A DNA stretch of 21,274 nucleotides from a virus. The translations under genes and the position numbers were made by a program. Below, piece after piece: positions 2,285 to 17,287 of this stretch. Position 1 is the first letter of the stretch, and every line of letters begins with the position of its first letter. The notes under the pieces were generated by a model. It did no database searches, was not told the DNA's origin, and saw only the letters and a list, made by a program, of their open reading frames with translations. The stretch covers positions 1 through 21,274 of the IMG/VR virus record IMGVR_UViG_3300001533_002053; one strand, given 5' to 3'.

Positions 2285-2514
2285 CCTATAAAATTCCAAA
2301 GCTCACAAGAAATGAGATTGAGACCCTTCAGGTTGACGCAGCGATGAGAACCATGGGGAATCTCTCAAATTCACTAGTGGAAATTAATCAGGAGCTTGGT
2401 CTTGCCATAAGTGATTTAGGCCAGGCGAGAGTAAAAGTAGAGAAACTCAAAGCGGATAAACAGACAGTAGTCGAGCTTATGAGGGCTTTAAAAGTACTGG
2501 TGCAAAGTGGCTAA
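2281..2514 (+). CDS. Coiled-coil hypothetical protein
   Basis: The protein has 77 residues and starts at an ATGA overlap with the endolysin gene. Residues about 25-75 form an alpha-helical, coiled-coil-like region (for example ARVKVEKLKADKQTVVELMR). There is no membrane segment. It lies directly before the terminase small subunit, whose GTG overlaps its last eight bases. The role is unknown. Coupling on both sides shows it belongs to the same transcript, and a DNA-packaging or lysis accessory role is possible but unsupported. Confidence 0.65.
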   Translation: MTYKIPKLTRNEIETLQVDAAMRTMGNLSNSLVEINQELGLAISDLGQARVKVEKLKADKQTVVELMRALKVLVQSG

Positions 2515-3016
2515 AAAGAAAGTTAAAAAGAAGACAACTAAAAAAAAGTTAGTAAAGAAAAAAGTTGCTTCGCCTAAAGAGGCAGCGACCGTAGATCAGG
2601 CTGAGGATAGCAAAGGAAAAGAAAAGCCGCGATTAACCTTTGACGAGATAGAGTGGATTAAGGCGCTACTGGCGGTTAATACAAGCAAGAAGAAAGTGGC
2701 GGATGAGACCGGACGGTCCTGGGATACGATAGACAGGATAGGCAAGTTAAACGAGGAGGAGATCGAGAAGTATCGTGACATAAAAAGGAAAGAATTTGTT
2801 TGTAAGGCGTGGGGGAAAGTAAATTTACTACTGGATAAGGTGACAGATAGCAAGTGTATCTTTGCAACGGTCAGTCAAATAACTACTGCCATGGGCACCA
2901 TATACGATAAGGCAGCACTGGCCAGCGGAGAGGCAACGGACAGGGTACAGCACGATCTCTCAGACAATATCTGCAACCTGTTAAAAAAATGCAGAAATCA
3001 ACGGCAGAAGACCTGA
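2507..3016 (+). CDS. Putative terminase small subunit
   Basis: This 169-residue protein starts at GTG 2507. Residues 1-20 are almost entirely Lys (KKKVKKKTTKKK), a basic tail likely to bind DNA. Residues about 45-75 contain a helix-turn-helix-like segment (DEIEWIKALL, then KKVADETGRSWDTIDRI). Small terminase subunits recognise the packaging site through such N-terminal domains and recruit the large subunit. The remaining helices would serve oligomerisation. Position supports the call: it overlaps the large subunit gene by 28 bases. Sequence similarity to a named family is not obvious, so the call rests on the helix-turn-helix and context. Confidence 0.72.
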   Translation: MAKKKVKKKTTKKKLVKKKVASPKEAATVDQAEDSKGKEKPRLTFDEIEWIKALLAVNTSKKKVADETGRSWDTIDRIGKLNEEEIEKYRDIKRKEFVCKAWGKVNLLLDKVTDSKCIFATVSQITTAMGTIYDKAALASGEATDRVQHDLSDNICNLLKKCRNQRQKT

Positions 3017-4428
3017 AGGAAGTCGCAAAATGGCAGCAAGACTCTGAATATTTTTTTAAGGAAATCCTGGGCATTCACCCATGGGAAAAGCAGATCGAGA
3101 TAGCGGAATCGGTAAGGGATCACGAAAGGACGATCGTACCCGCTGCCTTCGGCGTGGGAAAAACCTACATTTCGGCGGCGATAGTGATTCAGTTTCTCTG
3201 TTCTTATTTTCCCTCAAAGGTAATTACCACCGCCTCTACCGCGAGACAGGTGCGGGATCTCCTCTGGCGTGAGATAAGGAATATCCACAAAAAAAGTCTT
3301 GTCCCCATAGGCGGCCGGCTGCTCACCCAGGTCCTTGAGTTTGATGAAGACTGGTACGCGGTGGGATTTACCACCGACGAGTACGATCCCGATAAATTCA
3401 CCGGCTACCACTCAGAAAATGTGCTCGTGGTGTTTGACCAGGCCTCAGGTATTCCTAAATCGATATGGACCGCAGCCGAGGGATTAATGACCTCGGCGTT
3501 TTGCCGGTGGCTGGCAATTGGCAATTGTACCAGCTCAGACAGCGAGTTTTTTAAGAACTGCAAGCCTAACTCAGGGTGGAATCGCATCCACATAACCGCC
3601 TTTGACTCACCCAACGTAAAGGCAGGCAAAAATATTTACCCGGGAATCATCGCCCATGACTATCCTAAAAAGAAAGCCGAGCAGTGGGGGAAAGAGTCGA
3701 TCCTCTACCAGATGTTTGTCATGGCGGAGTTTCCCCGGGAGGGCACTGATAATCTCATATCCTACTACTATGTAGAGAAGGCGCTGCTCGATAAATGGAA
3801 TAATGGAGATCCGGTAGAGATAGGGGTGGATCCGGCAGAGTACGGAGATGATAAGACGATATTGGTGGCGAGGAGGGGGTATAGAATCGTTGAGATCGAG
3901 GTCCACTCAAAGCAGGATATCATGGTCACCACCGGCAATGCGATTCAGATGGCACACCGGCTGGCCGAGCCTTCCGGGAAGGATCCTAAACGGATCCCCA
4001 TAAAGGTAGATACCATCGGAGTAGGATCCGGGATCCCGCCACGATTGAGAGAGCAGGGGTACAGAGGAATCGATGTCAAGGTATCAGAAAATCCCGCAGA
4101 CAAAGACACCTATGAGAATCTCAGGGCGGAACTCGCATTCAATCTCAAGGATCGTTTTATAAATGAAGAGATCGGCGTTTCGAGCGATATCCCCGCGCAC
4201 ATCATAGAGGAGTGGGAGGCGGACACAATAGAGCCCAAATATAGCGTTAACTCAAAGGGGAAGTACGTCTTGGAGCCAAAAGAAAAGATTAAAAAGAGGC
4301 TTAAAAGATCACCCGACTACTTTGAGGGAACCATGTTAGCCTTTGCACCGACCAAGCAGCTTGAGACGGAGATCTCCTATCAGTCGGTGACGCAAAGACG
4401 GTTTTCTTCAGGGAGGCGTGCCTGGTAA
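2989..4428 (+). CDS. terL: Terminase large subunit (packaging ATPase-nuclease)
   Basis: This 479-residue protein is the motor that pumps DNA into the procapsid and cuts it. The N-terminal ATPase has a Walker A (A52-T59, AAFGVGKT) and a Walker B strand ending at D150 (VLVVFDQASG). The usual motif in this family is DEASG, so Gln151 replaces the catalytic Glu. A C-motif-like GNCTSS follows. The RNase H-like nuclease domain has D281 (GVDPAEYGDDKT) and D341 (VDTIGVGSG), with more acidic residues near 380. Length is normal for a complete subunit. The start overlaps the small subunit by 28 bases, and TAATG joins the stop to the portal start. Confidence 0.93.
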   Translation: MQKSTAEDLKEVAKWQQDSEYFFKEILGIHPWEKQIEIAESVRDHERTIVPAAFGVGKTYISAAIVIQFLCSYFPSKVITTASTARQVRDLLWREIRNIHKKSLVPIGGRLLTQVLEFDEDWYAVGFTTDEYDPDKFTGYHSENVLVVFDQASGIPKSIWTAAEGLMTSAFCRWLAIGNCTSSDSEFFKNCKPNSGWNRIHITAFDSPNVKAGKNIYPGIIAHDYPKKKAEQWGKESILYQMFVMAEFPREGTDNLISYYYVEKALLDKWNNGDPVEIGVDPAEYGDDKTILVARRGYRIVEIEVHSKQDIMVTTGNAIQMAHRLAEPSGKDPKRIPIKVDTIGVGSGIPPRLREQGYRGIDVKVSENPADKDTYENLRAELAFNLKDRFINEEIGVSSDIPAHIIEEWEADTIEPKYSVNSKGKYVLEPKEKIKKRLKRSPDYFEGTMLAFAPTKQLETEISYQSVTQRRFSSGRRAW

Positions 4429-11543: not shown

Positions 11544-12716
11544 ATGGCTGTCACAAACAGAATACAGCAAGGAAGGACAGTTCAATTTTTTTCAAAGGTA
11601 GAGACGGAAAAGGGCGTTCTCATCTGTCCAACGGCAACTGACTTTAATGTGATTGCCGGCCAGCCTGATTTCGGGCAGCAGTCCAGTTTTACCGACTCAA
11701 CTGAGATACGAAACTCACGATCGCTGGTAGATCGATTTCAGGACCAGAGACCGGCGGGTAGTTGGAGTGTGCCGATGCTGGTGAGACCATCCGGTACCGC
11801 AGGCACCGCACCGGACGGAGCGGCGATGCTAGAGGCGGCGTTCGGCACAGAGGATATTGTGACCGATACGAGCGTCACCTATTCGTTTACCATGGATAAT
11901 GATCTCCCTACCTTAACTATCGCCATCGGGTACGCGGACGTGGCGTGGTGGCTGGTGGGCGCGACGGTGAATGAATTAAAACTCACTTTGACCAATAAGG
12001 GGGCGCTGCAATTGAATTTTAGCGGTGGCTACATGTGGGATTGTTACGCCGGCTATACCGAGCTCGATGACTCAACCGGTGGTGGCGCCTCGGTAGAGCT
12101 TGCATCGGGAGAGGCGGTTAAGTTTACCGTGGGCGCTCTTATTCAGTTCTATACGGGAGACGCCTGGGATGACAACGAAGATGCCGGCTATGAGATCACC
12201 GCGATTAATTACGATGAAGATACCCTCACCCTGGGAACGTCAGCGCCTGCACTATCTACAGGTGATCTGGTCAAGTACTATCTGCCCGCATCCCCGACCG
12301 AGGTGGGAGAGTCGATCGAGTGCAGAACAGGGACGGTAGAATTTGATGACGTGGTTACCAAGGTGACCTCATGCGAGGCGACACTCGCCAATAACAACAG
12401 TTATCTTGAGGATGAGATCTCAAGCGATGACAATCCCACAGATTTTGTCTCTGATATAAGAAGCATCAAGGCCGCGACCAACATCGTATTGAGAACGGAT
12501 GACCTTATCCACTTCAGGAACTCCCGGGCAAATACCCAGGTGAAGATCGAAATACTGGGGGGAGACGAAGCGGGAAAATACATGGCGTTTAATATTCCCC
12601 AGGCGGTAGGAGACACCCCGGCCATGTCGGGTGATCTTCAGAGAACCGCAGCCCTCAACTTCACCGGCCTCGGGACGACCTCACTGGAGGACGAAGCAAC
12701 GCTCGTATTCACCTAA
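11544..12716 (+). CDS. Major tail tube protein (predicted)
   Basis: This 390-residue, beta-rich protein lies between the tail terminator and the chaperone gene, the standard place for the tube protein. Its start has AAGAGGAGGA 13-3 bases upstream. Sequence cues are the N-terminal QGRTVQFFSKVETEKG, the Asp/Thr-rich STEIRNSRSLVD region, and a C-terminal part with KIEILGGDEAGKYMAF and RTAALNFTG. Residues about 180-260 (from SVELASGEAVKFTVGALIQF) look like an inserted beta domain that splits the tube fold and may be displayed on the tail surface. The length is above that of minimal tube proteins, consistent with an insertion. Confidence 0.78.
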   Translation: MAVTNRIQQGRTVQFFSKVETEKGVLICPTATDFNVIAGQPDFGQQSSFTDSTEIRNSRSLVDRFQDQRPAGSWSVPMLVRPSGTAGTAPDGAAMLEAAFGTEDIVTDTSVTYSFTMDNDLPTLTIAIGYADVAWWLVGATVNELKLTLTNKGALQLNFSGGYMWDCYAGYTELDDSTGGGASVELASGEAVKFTVGALIQFYTGDAWDDNEDAGYEITAINYDEDTLTLGTSAPALSTGDLVKYYLPASPTEVGESIECRTGTVEFDDVVTKVTSCEATLANNNSYLEDEISSDDNPTDFVSDIRSIKAATNIVLRTDDLIHFRNSRANTQVKIEILGGDEAGKYMAFNIPQAVGDTPAMSGDLQRTAALNFTGLGTTSLEDEATLVFT

Positions 12717-12807: not shown

Positions 12808-13200
12808 ATGTCAAGTTTCATTGAGGTCGTTACTGACGATGAAGAAATACCGTTAAAGGTTGGTGACTCAACGATCTGGTACCGCAGGTTTGATATCGAA
12901 GAGTATAACCGGATTGTGAAGCGGTGGACCACAAAGGGAAAAATTAATCGCGCAACCGGCGAGCGCATTCTCCACACGGACGATCAAGGGGTGAGCAATG
13001 ACCTCTTGGATTACCTTATCAAAAGGTGGGAAAACATCAAGCATCCTAAAACTAAAAAGGATGTTGAGTGTACCAAGGAAATGAAACTGAAGCTCCCCAC
13101 CGATATACGGCTTGAGATACTGGACAAAGCCGGTGCGAAGGATGCAATCGGTGACACTGAACCAGAAAAAAAAACATCCGTGAGTACGCCGAGTACATAA
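12808..13200 (+). CDS. Tail assembly chaperone, short form (lambda gpG-like role)
   Basis: The start is ATG 12808 with AGAGGAGG (12797-12804) just upstream. An in-frame reading from 12631 runs back into the tail tube gene and is discounted. The product is 130 residues: a beta-strand N-terminal region (IEVVTDDEEIPLKVGDSTIW), then helices (FDIEEYNRIVKRW), typical of tail chaperones that act before the tape measure is coated with tube protein. The gene ends at TAA 13198-13200 after a run of nine A residues. It lies between the tail tube and tape measure genes, as chaperones do. Ribosomes that do not shift make this form. Confidence 0.8.
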   Translation: MSSFIEVVTDDEEIPLKVGDSTIWYRRFDIEEYNRIVKRWTTKGKINRATGERILHTDDQGVSNDLLDYLIKRWENIKHPKTKKDVECTKEMKLKLPTDIRLEILDKAGAKDAIGDTEPEKKTSVSTPST

Positions 13201-13505
13201 GATCGACCAGGAAAGAGATCAACGGTCAGAAGATCCTTACCTGTGAAGAGTGTGAGAAATTATATGAGGACGATCCCAATGGGACGCCCTGTGATTCCTG
13301 CCATGTGCCCCGGCTATGGCAAATCAACTATGAGGCATGGGAATTATACCAGTTTATAAACTCACAGTTTGTTTATGATTTCCATGCTCTCCCCCTGGTA
13401 TTTGAAATCTTGAAACCCCGCTGGAGCCGGGCAGAGGCAGTCCTGATGCTCGAAAAACTCATTATTATCCACGCTGAATTAACAAAAAGAGAAGAGGACG
13501 CATAA
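12808..13505 (+). CDS. Tail assembly chaperone, -1 frameshift fusion (lambda gpGT-like)
   Basis: A run of nine A residues (13166-13174) contains the zero-frame heptamer A-AAA-AAA (13167-13173). Slipping -1 there joins 122 residues of the short form to 110 further residues in a second frame, 232 in all, ending at TAA 13503-13505. The second frame has no suitable early start and its last stop before the site is at 13152-13154, so the overlap is only 13155-13200. The extension has CEEC and CDSC pairs (Cys codons at 13242, 13251, 13290 and 13299), a possible zinc knuckle, then aromatic-rich helices. Lambda makes gpGT by the same kind of shift. The 13305 start in this frame has no good ribosome site and is less likely. 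Confidence 0.78.
13167..13173 (+). promoter_or_regulatory. Predicted -1 ribosomal slippage site (A-AAA-AAA)
   Basis: The zero-frame codons are GAA AAA AAA ACA, so tRNA-Lys could slip back one base on AAA AAA and continue at AAC (13173-13175). The overlap between the upstream frame's last -1-frame stop (13152-13154) and the zero-frame stop (13198-13200) contains only this long A run as a plausible site. I did not find an obvious strong stem-loop stimulator just downstream. Polymerase slippage on A9 is an alternative mechanism. Confidence 0.72.
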
Positions 13506-13510
13506 ACAAA

Positions 13511-16500
13511 ATGGCTGATAAGGTCACCATACAGCTTGATGTTGATGATAAGGGATCGGTCAAGATAACAGATTTCGGCAAAAAATATAACGCCGCAATG
13601 AACAAGCTCAAAACATCAACTACCGCTGCGTCTAATATAGCTAAAAAGGCTTTTGGCGCTATGAGTACCGGATTGCAAAGCTTGAGAAAACACTGGCTTG
13701 CGCTCACCGCGGCCGCCACCGCGCTCCTTTATACCGCAAAAAGATTGGTTGATGCCTACCTGGTCCAGGAGAGGGCCGAACGACTACTCGCAGATGCGAT
13801 GAAAACAGCCGGCTACTATACGGAGACAGCGCATAGCGAACTCAAGAAATACGCAACTGCTCTGCAGATGACTACTCGTTTTGGTGATGAGATGACCCTA
13901 CAGGCAATGGCAATGATGGAGGCATTTCAGCTTAATACACAAGAATTGAAATGGGCTGCACAGGCCGCGCAGAATTTATCAGTTGCATTAGGCTTTGACA
14001 TGCGGACGGCAGCCCGCTACGTCGCAATGGCCTTGCAGGGTAACATTGAGATGCTCGGCCGGCACATCGCTCAGTTAAAGACCAATATCAATACAAAACT
14101 GAAAGACATGTCGGTCACCGAGAAGGTCACCTATTTTATCAAATTAATGAATGAGCAGTTCGGCGGCAGGGCTCAGGCAGAGATGGAATCCTACGGCGCC
14201 CAGCTTGCATGGCTCGGGAATCTCATGGGAGATGTCAAGGAACAAATAGGGTTGGGGATTCTGGAGGCCTTCGCCGGTGAAAACATCGAGGCCGCCAGCA
14301 AAAACATGAAGTCTTTAGGACTCACTGTTATTGAGTGGGGAGAGAAAATAACAAAGACAATCTTTATGCTAAGCGTTGCCTTTGATGGATGGCGTAATGT
14401 GTGGGACATTCTAAAATTGGCCTGGCTTAATTTAGTGGAGATAATTCTCAAAGGAATAGAAAAAATACAGAAGGCGAATATCTGGCTAAAAGAATTATTG
14501 GGAGCAAATGCAGATGAGTTGAAAGTGTATTACAGAAATTTACTGAGTACCCAGGAGTCTCTCAGTGAGAATCTACAGAAACAAGCGGATATTACACAAA
14601 GCTTAACTGATCGAGGCTCGCATTTAGTAAAGGGGCTGGAAGAGATTGAACTCCGGTTCGCGGGTATGAGGGAAACCATTAAAGATATCCCCGATGTGAT
14701 GGCGATGATTCCGAAAGAATTTGAGCTATCAGTGAAAGACATGCCTAAAAAAGCAGAGGAGGCAACAGAAGGGGTCAAGGAGGCCACCAAGAATTTAGTG
14801 GATGATAGCAAGTCACAGTATGAAGAGATGGGAAACGCCTGGAACGATAAGGTCGATTCAATGGCGGGATCACTAAAAGGATTTTTGCGGGAAACCGCTC
14901 AAGGTGAGTGGACAGGATTTAGTGATTTCCTTAATAAGCTGTGGGACAGAATGCGAAATGCTTTCTCAGACATGCTTATTTCAATGGCTATTGATTGGGC
15001 GGCTAGTATGTTCAAAATGCAGGAGGTTGCAAATCTCAATGTCAACGTCGCCGGTGGTGGCATTGGCGGGATAGCGGGAGCGGCAGGGGGCGGTGCCGAG
15101 GGCGGAGGGGGGGTTATGCAGCAGGGCGGCAGCATGGCGCTCAATCTTGGAATGAAAAAACTGGGATTTAGCTACGCCGGTCTTGCCTCAAGGATTCCCA
15201 TGATTGGAAATATGATTACCTCAACTGAGTATGTGATGCTCGCCACCGGCGCGGTAGTGCCCGCCAACTCAACAGCAGGGGCTGCGGCAATTTCCGAGGG
15301 AACCGGAATGGCATCAATGCAGGGGTCACCCTATTTTTCTGGCGCTCTTGGCGCTGGAATGGCTGGCATAGCAGGCGGCATGATAGGCGCTTATGGCGGC
15401 AGTATGGTTGGAGAGACAAGAGGTGAGGGAGCACAAATCGGGGCAGGGGCCGGTATGGGTGGCGTAGCAGGCGGGGCATTAGGAGGAGGAATGGCGGCAG
15501 CTGGATTAATTTCAATGGCTCCGTTGATGGCGACTGGTGTAGGTGCAATAGTGGGAACAATAGCCGCCGCAGTAATGTCAGCTATGGGGCCAGACCAGGT
15601 AGAGCGCAGACGTCAGGCAAAGGGCGGAATGTTTACTGAAGCCTCTTCTGATTGGACTGCAGGAGAGTATGGCTCACTCGCTGAAATGATGGCAGCGCAG
15701 CCTAATTTTTTAAGGAATCAAAAATATCTTCACTATGCACAAGAGTACAAGGGCGCGGGTGGTGGTGGACTTGCCTACATGACGCAAGAGCAGACAACGA
15801 TACTTCACGAACTCACAAAGTTTGGCGGTGGCGCTGCCCCGGCGGTCGGCGGTCAGCTCAATACCCTGACCTCCTCATTTAAAATACTCAATGCGACGCT
15901 CACGGACCCGGAAGCACTGGAGAAGATGAAAAAGTGGGAAGATAACATGAAAAATCTTTTCAAGGAGGATACCTTAAGAAGTCTGGAAATGGGGACCCGG
16001 AGCTTGAGAAACGCGAGAGAGGGACTAAAGAATTTAGGGCTTGAAGACGCCGAGACCATGACGGCGATGTTTGAGGCGTCACTTAAATCTCTCTTCTCAG
16101 ATACGCTGCCCCTTGGGCCGGTACAGATAAAACGACTCTATGAAGATCTGCGGCAGCTCAAAGAGGATATGGAAGAGGCGGGATCCGCCGCCGCAGGGCA
16201 GGAGGTGGTAATGCGGGCAATGGCCGCCGGCTATGAGTTTACCGCAGAGCAATTAGAGCTGCTCAGAAGTAATGTCGAGAATCTGAGAAACCTGGAATAC
16301 ATAAGCCTCTATGAGGCATTCGGTATCGAGGAAATGGAGCTCGTGCCCGGGACCATAGACGACACCGAAGAGGCGATCGAACAGATGAGGGTCTCGATTG
16401 ATAAAGCGAACGCCTCGATCGAACAGTACAAACAGTGGGTGAGCGAGCTGCCGGATGCGTTGGGCGAGGTCAAGAAGGCCCTTGAATTGATGGCCACTGC

Positions 16501-17287
16501 GATGCAGATAGGCACGCAGATAATGAAAGAGGCAACCGATGTGGTGGAAAATCTCTCCAACATTGGCGAGACCATGGAAGATTTCAAAGAGGCCATGGAG
16601 GCGGGAGACCTGGGCGCGATTTCAGACAGCCTCTATACGATCAATATGCAGTGGACGGATATGATCGAGCTCATGACCTACCTCACCGCGCTTATCCCTC
16701 AACTACAGGGTGTGACGTTTGTGATGATGGGTATTTCAACGGCCATCCAGGGGATTACCCTCGCTCTCCAGGGGTTTCAGATTTTAAAGACATTTATCAA
16801 GACGGTCCTTTCTTGGGGAGACAGAATCGCTGAGATGCGCGGTGAGATGGAGAAGTGGAAGGAGATCAAACAGATAATACTTGAGGCGCTATTTACGCCG
16901 CTTCTCCTGGTGTTGGATACGATCGGTATTCTTATACCGTTTTTCAAAGATCTCGCAAAGATTATCAGGGAGGATCTCGCGGATGCCTTTGAAGAACCGG
17001 AAAAGCAGGCCCTCTATCTTGAGGACATAATAAAATCTTTAAGAGCGATTTCAAAAGAGACCTTCATGCAGATGACCCTTGACATGGCGGAGTGGGGAAA
17101 GAACCTTGACTACTCCTCATTTGAATTGGCCCTCGAAGAAATGAAGCAATCCTGGGAGGGCTATTTCGACTATCTCTCTGAACATTGGGAGGATCTGGCG
17201 CCAGAGATACAGGATGCAATCCAGAAAAACATGCTCGACTATTTCGAGGATGCGATTGAAAAAATGTATGAGCAGTTTGTACGATGA
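13511..17287 (+). CDS. Tape measure protein, N-terminal and central part
   Basis: At 1258 residues this is by far the largest gene, directly after the chaperone pair, which identifies the tape measure that sets tail length. The N-terminal third is helical, with a typical segment (MALQGNIEMLGRHIAQLKTN). Residues about 513-700 are Gly/Ala-rich and strongly hydrophobic (for example GAGMGGVAGGALGGGMAAAG), suited to membrane insertion during DNA ejection. The C-terminal half is charged and helical. The frame ends at TGA 17285-17287 with FVR, while helical coding continues in the +1 frame at 17268-18701. If joined, the protein would be about 1,730 residues. At about 1.5 angstrom per residue this predicts a tail near 260 nm, against about 190 nm for the first part alone. 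Confidence 0.85.
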   Translation: MADKVTIQLDVDDKGSVKITDFGKKYNAAMNKLKTSTTAASNIAKKAFGAMSTGLQSLRKHWLALTAAATALLYTAKRLVDAYLVQERAERLLADAMKTAGYYTETAHSELKKYATALQMTTRFGDEMTLQAMAMMEAFQLNTQELKWAAQAAQNLSVALGFDMRTAARYVAMALQGNIEMLGRHIAQLKTNINTKLKDMSVTEKVTYFIKLMNEQFGGRAQAEMESYGAQLAWLGNLMGDVKEQIGLGILEAFAGENIEAASKNMKSLGLTVIEWGEKITKTIFMLSVAFDGWRNVWDILKLAWLNLVEIILKGIEKIQKANIWLKELLGANADELKVYYRNLLSTQESLSENLQKQADITQSLTDRGSHLVKGLEEIELRFAGMRETIKDIPDVMAMIPKEFELSVKDMPKKAEEATEGVKEATKNLVDDSKSQYEEMGNAWNDKVDSMAGSLKGFLRETAQGEWTGFSDFLNKLWDRMRNAFSDMLISMAIDWAASMFKMQEVANLNVNVAGGGIGGIAGAAGGGAEGGGGVMQQGGSMALNLGMKKLGFSYAGLASRIPMIGNMITSTEYVMLATGAVVPANSTAGAAAISEGTGMASMQGSPYFSGALGAGMAGIAGGMIGAYGGSMVGETRGEGAQIGAGAGMGGVAGGALGGGMAAAGLISMAPLMATGVGAIVGTIAAAVMSAMGPDQVERRRQAKGGMFTEASSDWTAGEYGSLAEMMAAQPNFLRNQKYLHYAQEYKGAGGGGLAYMTQEQTTILHELTKFGGGAAPAVGGQLNTLTSSFKILNATLTDPEALEKMKKWEDNMKNLFKEDTLRSLEMGTRSLRNAREGLKNLGLEDAETMTAMFEASLKSLFSDTLPLGPVQIKRLYEDLRQLKEDMEEAGSAAAGQEVVMRAMAAGYEFTAEQLELLRSNVENLRNLEYISLYEAFGIEEMELVPGTIDDTEEAIEQMRVSIDKANASIEQYKQWVSELPDALGEVKKALELMATAMQIGTQIMKEATDVVENLSNIGETMEDFKEAMEAGDLGAISDSLYTINMQWTDMIELMTYLTALIPQLQGVTFVMMGISTAIQGITLALQGFQILKTFIKTVLSWGDRIAEMRGEMEKWKEIKQIILEALFTPLLLVLDTIGILIPFFKDLAKIIREDLADAFEEPEKQALYLEDIIKSLRAISKETFMQMTLDMAEWGKNLDYSSFELALEEMKQSWEGYFDYLSEHWEDLAPEIQDAIQKNMLDYFEDAIEKMYEQFVR

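Follow-up and report, generated by a model that had tools for sequence, protein, structure and literature searches.

The window considered here is a whole IMG/VR record of 21,274 bases from a Mu-like phage, in which a Mu-type portal and an I protease are encoded. On its plus strand, a gpG-like open reading frame for a tail assembly chaperone (TAC) extends from 12,808 to 13,200 and specifies a zero-frame product of 130 residues, its ATG being preceded by GAGGAGG, a strong ribosome binding site. A second, gpT-like open frame is found on the same strand at 13,161-13,505, in the -1 frame relative to the first. Both are located between a putative tail tube gene (11,544-12,716, plus strand) and the tape measure gene (13,511-17,287, plus strand), immediately 5' of the latter, which has its own start (ATG 13,511). 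This placement had been proposed in an initial annotation and holds on the tape measure side, where phrog_167 is matched (E 8.5e-7), while the tube gene is assigned by position only, with no family match and no similarity to its positional counterpart in a more distant locus, L002. Elsewhere in the window, an A7 run at 2,983-2,989 is in the zero frame of an open reading frame at 2,507-3,016, just 5' of the ATG (2,989) of the large terminase gene, whose frame is -1 relative to that open reading frame; the terminase has its own start, and the arrangement is probably an ordinary gene overlap.

The chaperone frame stops at 13,198-13,200 and the -1 frame opens after a TGA at 13,158-13,160, the stretch open in both frames being 13,161-13,200, i.e., 40 bases and not the 46 (13,155-13,200) reported initially. 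It contains an A9 run at 13,166-13,174 (plus strand), read as GAA AAA AAA ACA in the zero frame, with the in-phase heptamer A_AAA_AAA at 13,167-13,173, as the initial annotation had described. With A7 as frequent as it is in the window, a 40-base overlap would be expected to contain about 0.008 in-phase A7 heptamers, and, besides this A9, no A/T run in the window reaches nine bases. A change of frame at this point adds 110 residues, starting at N123 (codon 13,173), to 122 residues of the chaperone, in agreement with the 232-residue fusion first proposed. The same junction residues, E-K-K-N-I, are given by a -1 ribosomal shift and by an A10 transcript.

Regarding the extension, the two cysteine pairs noted initially are present, the Cys codons beginning at 13,242, 13,251, 13,290, and 13,299 and forming a C-x2-C-x12-C-x2-C motif (13,242-13,301, plus strand). 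This is a C4 motif, and the zinc knuckle then suggested, a CCHC arrangement (C-x2-C-x4-H-x4-C), is ruled out. In a 27-row alignment of extensions, the four cysteines are invariant (27/27) and no other column is; the two conserved CxxC pairs expected of a C4 zinc domain are found in every row. The motif probably constitutes a structural zinc site, to which a metal would bind. As in zinc ribbon and treble-clef C4 domains, the two pairs lie 12 residues apart; unlike these domains, the extension has no significant match among C4 zinc families, Zn_ribbon_15 being the best (E 0.086). More generally, neither the chaperone nor the extension of the window has a confident match in Pfam, PHROG, or NCBIfam. 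DUF1799 (PF08809) is matched by three of the 27 extensions, all from distant relatives of the window; the window's own extension has no PF08809 match in a profile search judged by the curated cut-off and is tied to DUF1799 through alignment only. In relatives, judging from a dN/dS of about 0.12-0.16 in the extension frame (pairs with computable dS), the extension is under purifying selection and coding in nature. According to its AlphaFold model, which is of moderate confidence (pLDDT 77), the extension is mostly helical; the chaperone model has the same pLDDT (77). No clear relative of the two models was found in the PDB (best Foldseek E 3.0 and 0.52; VIA-align Z of at most 3.7), and for predicted structures such a lack of a solved relative says little.

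Queries with the fusion against annotated phages, at both the DNA and the protein level, retrieved no relative, and no match was obtained when viral contigs were scanned with the fusion or the tube as single proteins. As the annotated phages had yielded no relative of the fusion, 160 Mu-like loci were gathered via portal alignment and screened for overlapping frames, and the set was enlarged by extension alignments and whole genomes. In 37 distinct loci, a chaperone-like open reading frame is accompanied by a C4 extension and an A-rich slip site; 10 of these loci belong to clade A, 12 to clade B, 6 are more distant (L002, L011, L031, L073, L082, and L091), and 9 come from genomes. Of the 37, 36 have the extension in the -1 frame. 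Two weak genome matches, L199 and L200, were left out of this count: they have a similar C4 stretch within a long open frame and no A run, and possibly represent a fused or an unrelated gene. Of the 21 aligned loci with chaperone homologues, 11 show a match to phrog_313 ('Tail assembly chaperone'); the window's own chaperone does not.

Clade A comprises the window, L035, L171, L173, L174, L176, L190, L191, L192, and L194, and has FVYDF(H/Q)AL in common in the extension. It is fully supported in the tree, with L194 falling inside at a weakly supported fork. Clade B consists of L034, L043, L178, L179, and L181-L188, and its extensions are homologous to those of clade A (hhalign E 2.9e-12). In clade B, a run of A6-A8 precedes a C or T at the slip site, A_AAA_AAC being the prevailing form, and the zero-frame stop is often directly behind it. 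The more distant members display A_AAA_AAC or A_AAA_AAG, and this outgroup site is the classical ribosomal heptamer.

It is therefore very probable, on comparative grounds, that a minor 232-residue fusion is made beside an abundant 130-residue chaperone, two products arising from one start. Of the programmed -1 frameshift originally put forward, the fused chaperone is upheld, slip site and four cysteines being kept in relatives; the route, however, need not be ribosomal, because the conservation of exactly nine A's, the changing codon phase of the run, and L176 (see below) fit slippage of RNA polymerase about equally. A -1 ribosomal frameshift acting alone at A_AAA_AAA, with A9 arising incidentally from the choice of codons, is given an even chance. 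In the window, and in those other members of clade A whose extension lies in the -1 frame, the heptamer is in phase; the outgroups carry A_AAA_AAC or A_AAA_AAG, and the phages RC1 and ThpS-P1 have GGGAAAC just before a TGA. The prior from long-tailed phages is strong (PMC5009743). The literature searched presents the frameshift of tail chaperones as a ribosomal one. A possible ribosomal stimulator, the SD-like GGTGA at 13,150-13,155 (plus strand), is located about 11 bases 5' of the A run in the window, where its SD energy is -7.3 (p 0.04); it is not conserved among relatives, the mean p in clade A being 0.53. Against a purely ribosomal route, an exact A9 in three codon phases exceeds what the heptamer needs, no conserved SD element or downstream hairpin that could serve as stimulator was found in clade A, and the frame of L176 is left unexplained.

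Only a little less weight is given to the possibility that A's are inserted or skipped by RNA polymerase at A9, some mRNAs thereby encoding the fusion in a single frame with no ribosomal shift needed. The conserved A/T homopolymer of at least 8-9 bases associated with programmed transcriptional realignment is found here as exactly A9 in nine of the ten clade A members, and across the 81 kb of these nine contigs the slip-site A9 is the sole A/T run of at least nine bases. It persists even in contigs of about 58-60% G+C. Furthermore, it occurs in three phases, NAA AAA AAA AC, GGA AAA AAA AAG, and GAT AAA AAA AAA, for which an in-phase heptamer alone would require just 8, 7, and 9 A's, respectively. 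In L176, where A9 is at 2,982-2,990, the frame of the extension is +1/-2 with respect to that of the chaperone, which is unattainable by -1 ribosomal shifting, and the lack of a conserved SD-like element or structure in clade A also favors slippage. Nine is a reported length threshold for polymerase slippage: selection against A/T runs is evident from nine in many bacterial genomes (Baranov et al., PMC1088944), and slippage is efficient at nine A or T (Atkins et al., PMC5009743). In other genes, measured frameshifting correlated with poly-A length (PMC3711429). The part of the literature covered by the search describes no tail chaperone with slippage.

Other observations speak against slippage. 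The slip site of L194, apparently within clade A, is A7C, a plain ribosomal site; L176 may be a natural variant but may also reflect a one-base homopolymer error, and caution is therefore warranted. In addition, an in-phase A_AAA_AAA is present within every A9, the outgroup sites are of the ribosomal type, and the structure difference between clade A and the outgroups is not significant (p 0.11-0.17). With these reservations, clade A may have come to use a homopolymer in place of, or in addition to, the ribosomal site of its relatives. That this A9 clade of Mu-like phages sets its chaperone:fusion ratio by polymerase slippage, having switched from a ribosomal A_AAA_AAC-type site, is a tentative proposal, held at somewhat less than even.

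Two separate proteins, with the extension using a start codon of its own, are very improbable. The first ATG, GTG, or TTG in the -1 frame, GTG 13,305, could begin a 66-residue open reading frame, but it falls downstream of all four conserved cysteines, whose part of the extension is the most conserved, and relatives have no conserved start for the downstream part between slip site and cysteines. Least probable of all is a sequencing or assembly error within a single continuous gene, since, although homopolymers are error-prone and the frame of L176 differs at the same run, the -1 relation recurs in 36 loci that come from numerous contigs and genomes, and such an error is unlikely at the short A6-A7C sites which many of these loci have.

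A fusion produced by a change of frame is reminiscent of gpG/gpGT of lambda, with which the locus shares a chaperone open reading frame, an overlapping -1 frame at a slippery run, the placing between tube position and tape measure gene, and a short and a fused product. Unlike in lambda, the extension here has an invariant C4 motif, and clade A has an exact A9 run as opposed to a bare heptamer. Extensions of the DUF1799 type in Mu-like siphophages such as RC1 and ThpS-P1 also follow the chaperone after a -1 shift, and these two phages appear to reach a DUF1799-like extension through their GGGAAAC site. While three C4 members match PF08809, the extensions of RC1 and ThpS-P1 lack the cysteines and that of the window falls below this family. 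Because of these three matches and of the route taken in RC1 and ThpS-P1, the C4 extension seems to be one version of a T-like half that Mu-like phages already employ. In RC1 itself (L006), a 345-base DUF1799-like gene at 2,679-3,023 is annotated as tail length tape measure protein and looks like a -1 extension of the chaperone rather than a tape measure. Among Mu-like contractile relatives, the Faecalibacterium phage Mushu (L003, at 20,785) and many Bacillota prophage loci (such as L134, L155, and L162) have in-phase AAATTTG/AAATTTA or AAAAAAG sites followed by a -1 extension that is short, has no Cys, and precedes the tape measure gene. With regard to programmed transcriptional realignment at A9/T9, as in Thermus dnaX, IS elements, and Shigella secretion genes, a nine-base homopolymer likewise joins two frames and downstream structure is not needed; in contrast, no such case for a tail chaperone was found in the papers searched, and slippage is here a candidate route proposed from DNA sequence.

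With the classical heptamer in outgroups and three extensions matching DUF1799, the locus is best regarded as a G/GT-type frame change with a C4 domain, which is real and conserved and, by comparative evidence, functional. Translation from ATG 12,808 would yield the 130-residue TAC as the abundant zero-frame product, and a minor 232-residue form would leave the frame at the A9 run and gain the four-cysteine domain. The -1 change could result from the ribosome slipping at A_AAA_AAA, for which the chances are about balanced, from RNA polymerase inserting one A, which is slightly less probable, or from both. The four cysteines of the extension would bind one zinc ion. In lambda, gpG as well as gpGT binds to the tape measure protein, the partner of the T part being the tail tube protein (PMC5009743). 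By analogy, the chaperone half may hold the tape measure protein and the extension may recruit tail tube subunits.

The C4 extension, invariant in its cysteines and mostly missed by existing families, makes it easier to recognize T-like halves that lack annotation in environmental phages and prophages. Regarding the route, a clade with A9 and sisters with ribosomal heptamers is a natural candidate for a switch from ribosome to polymerase in the production of the same fusion protein, and, if slippage is true, the loose frame requirement that comes with it would be visible in L176.
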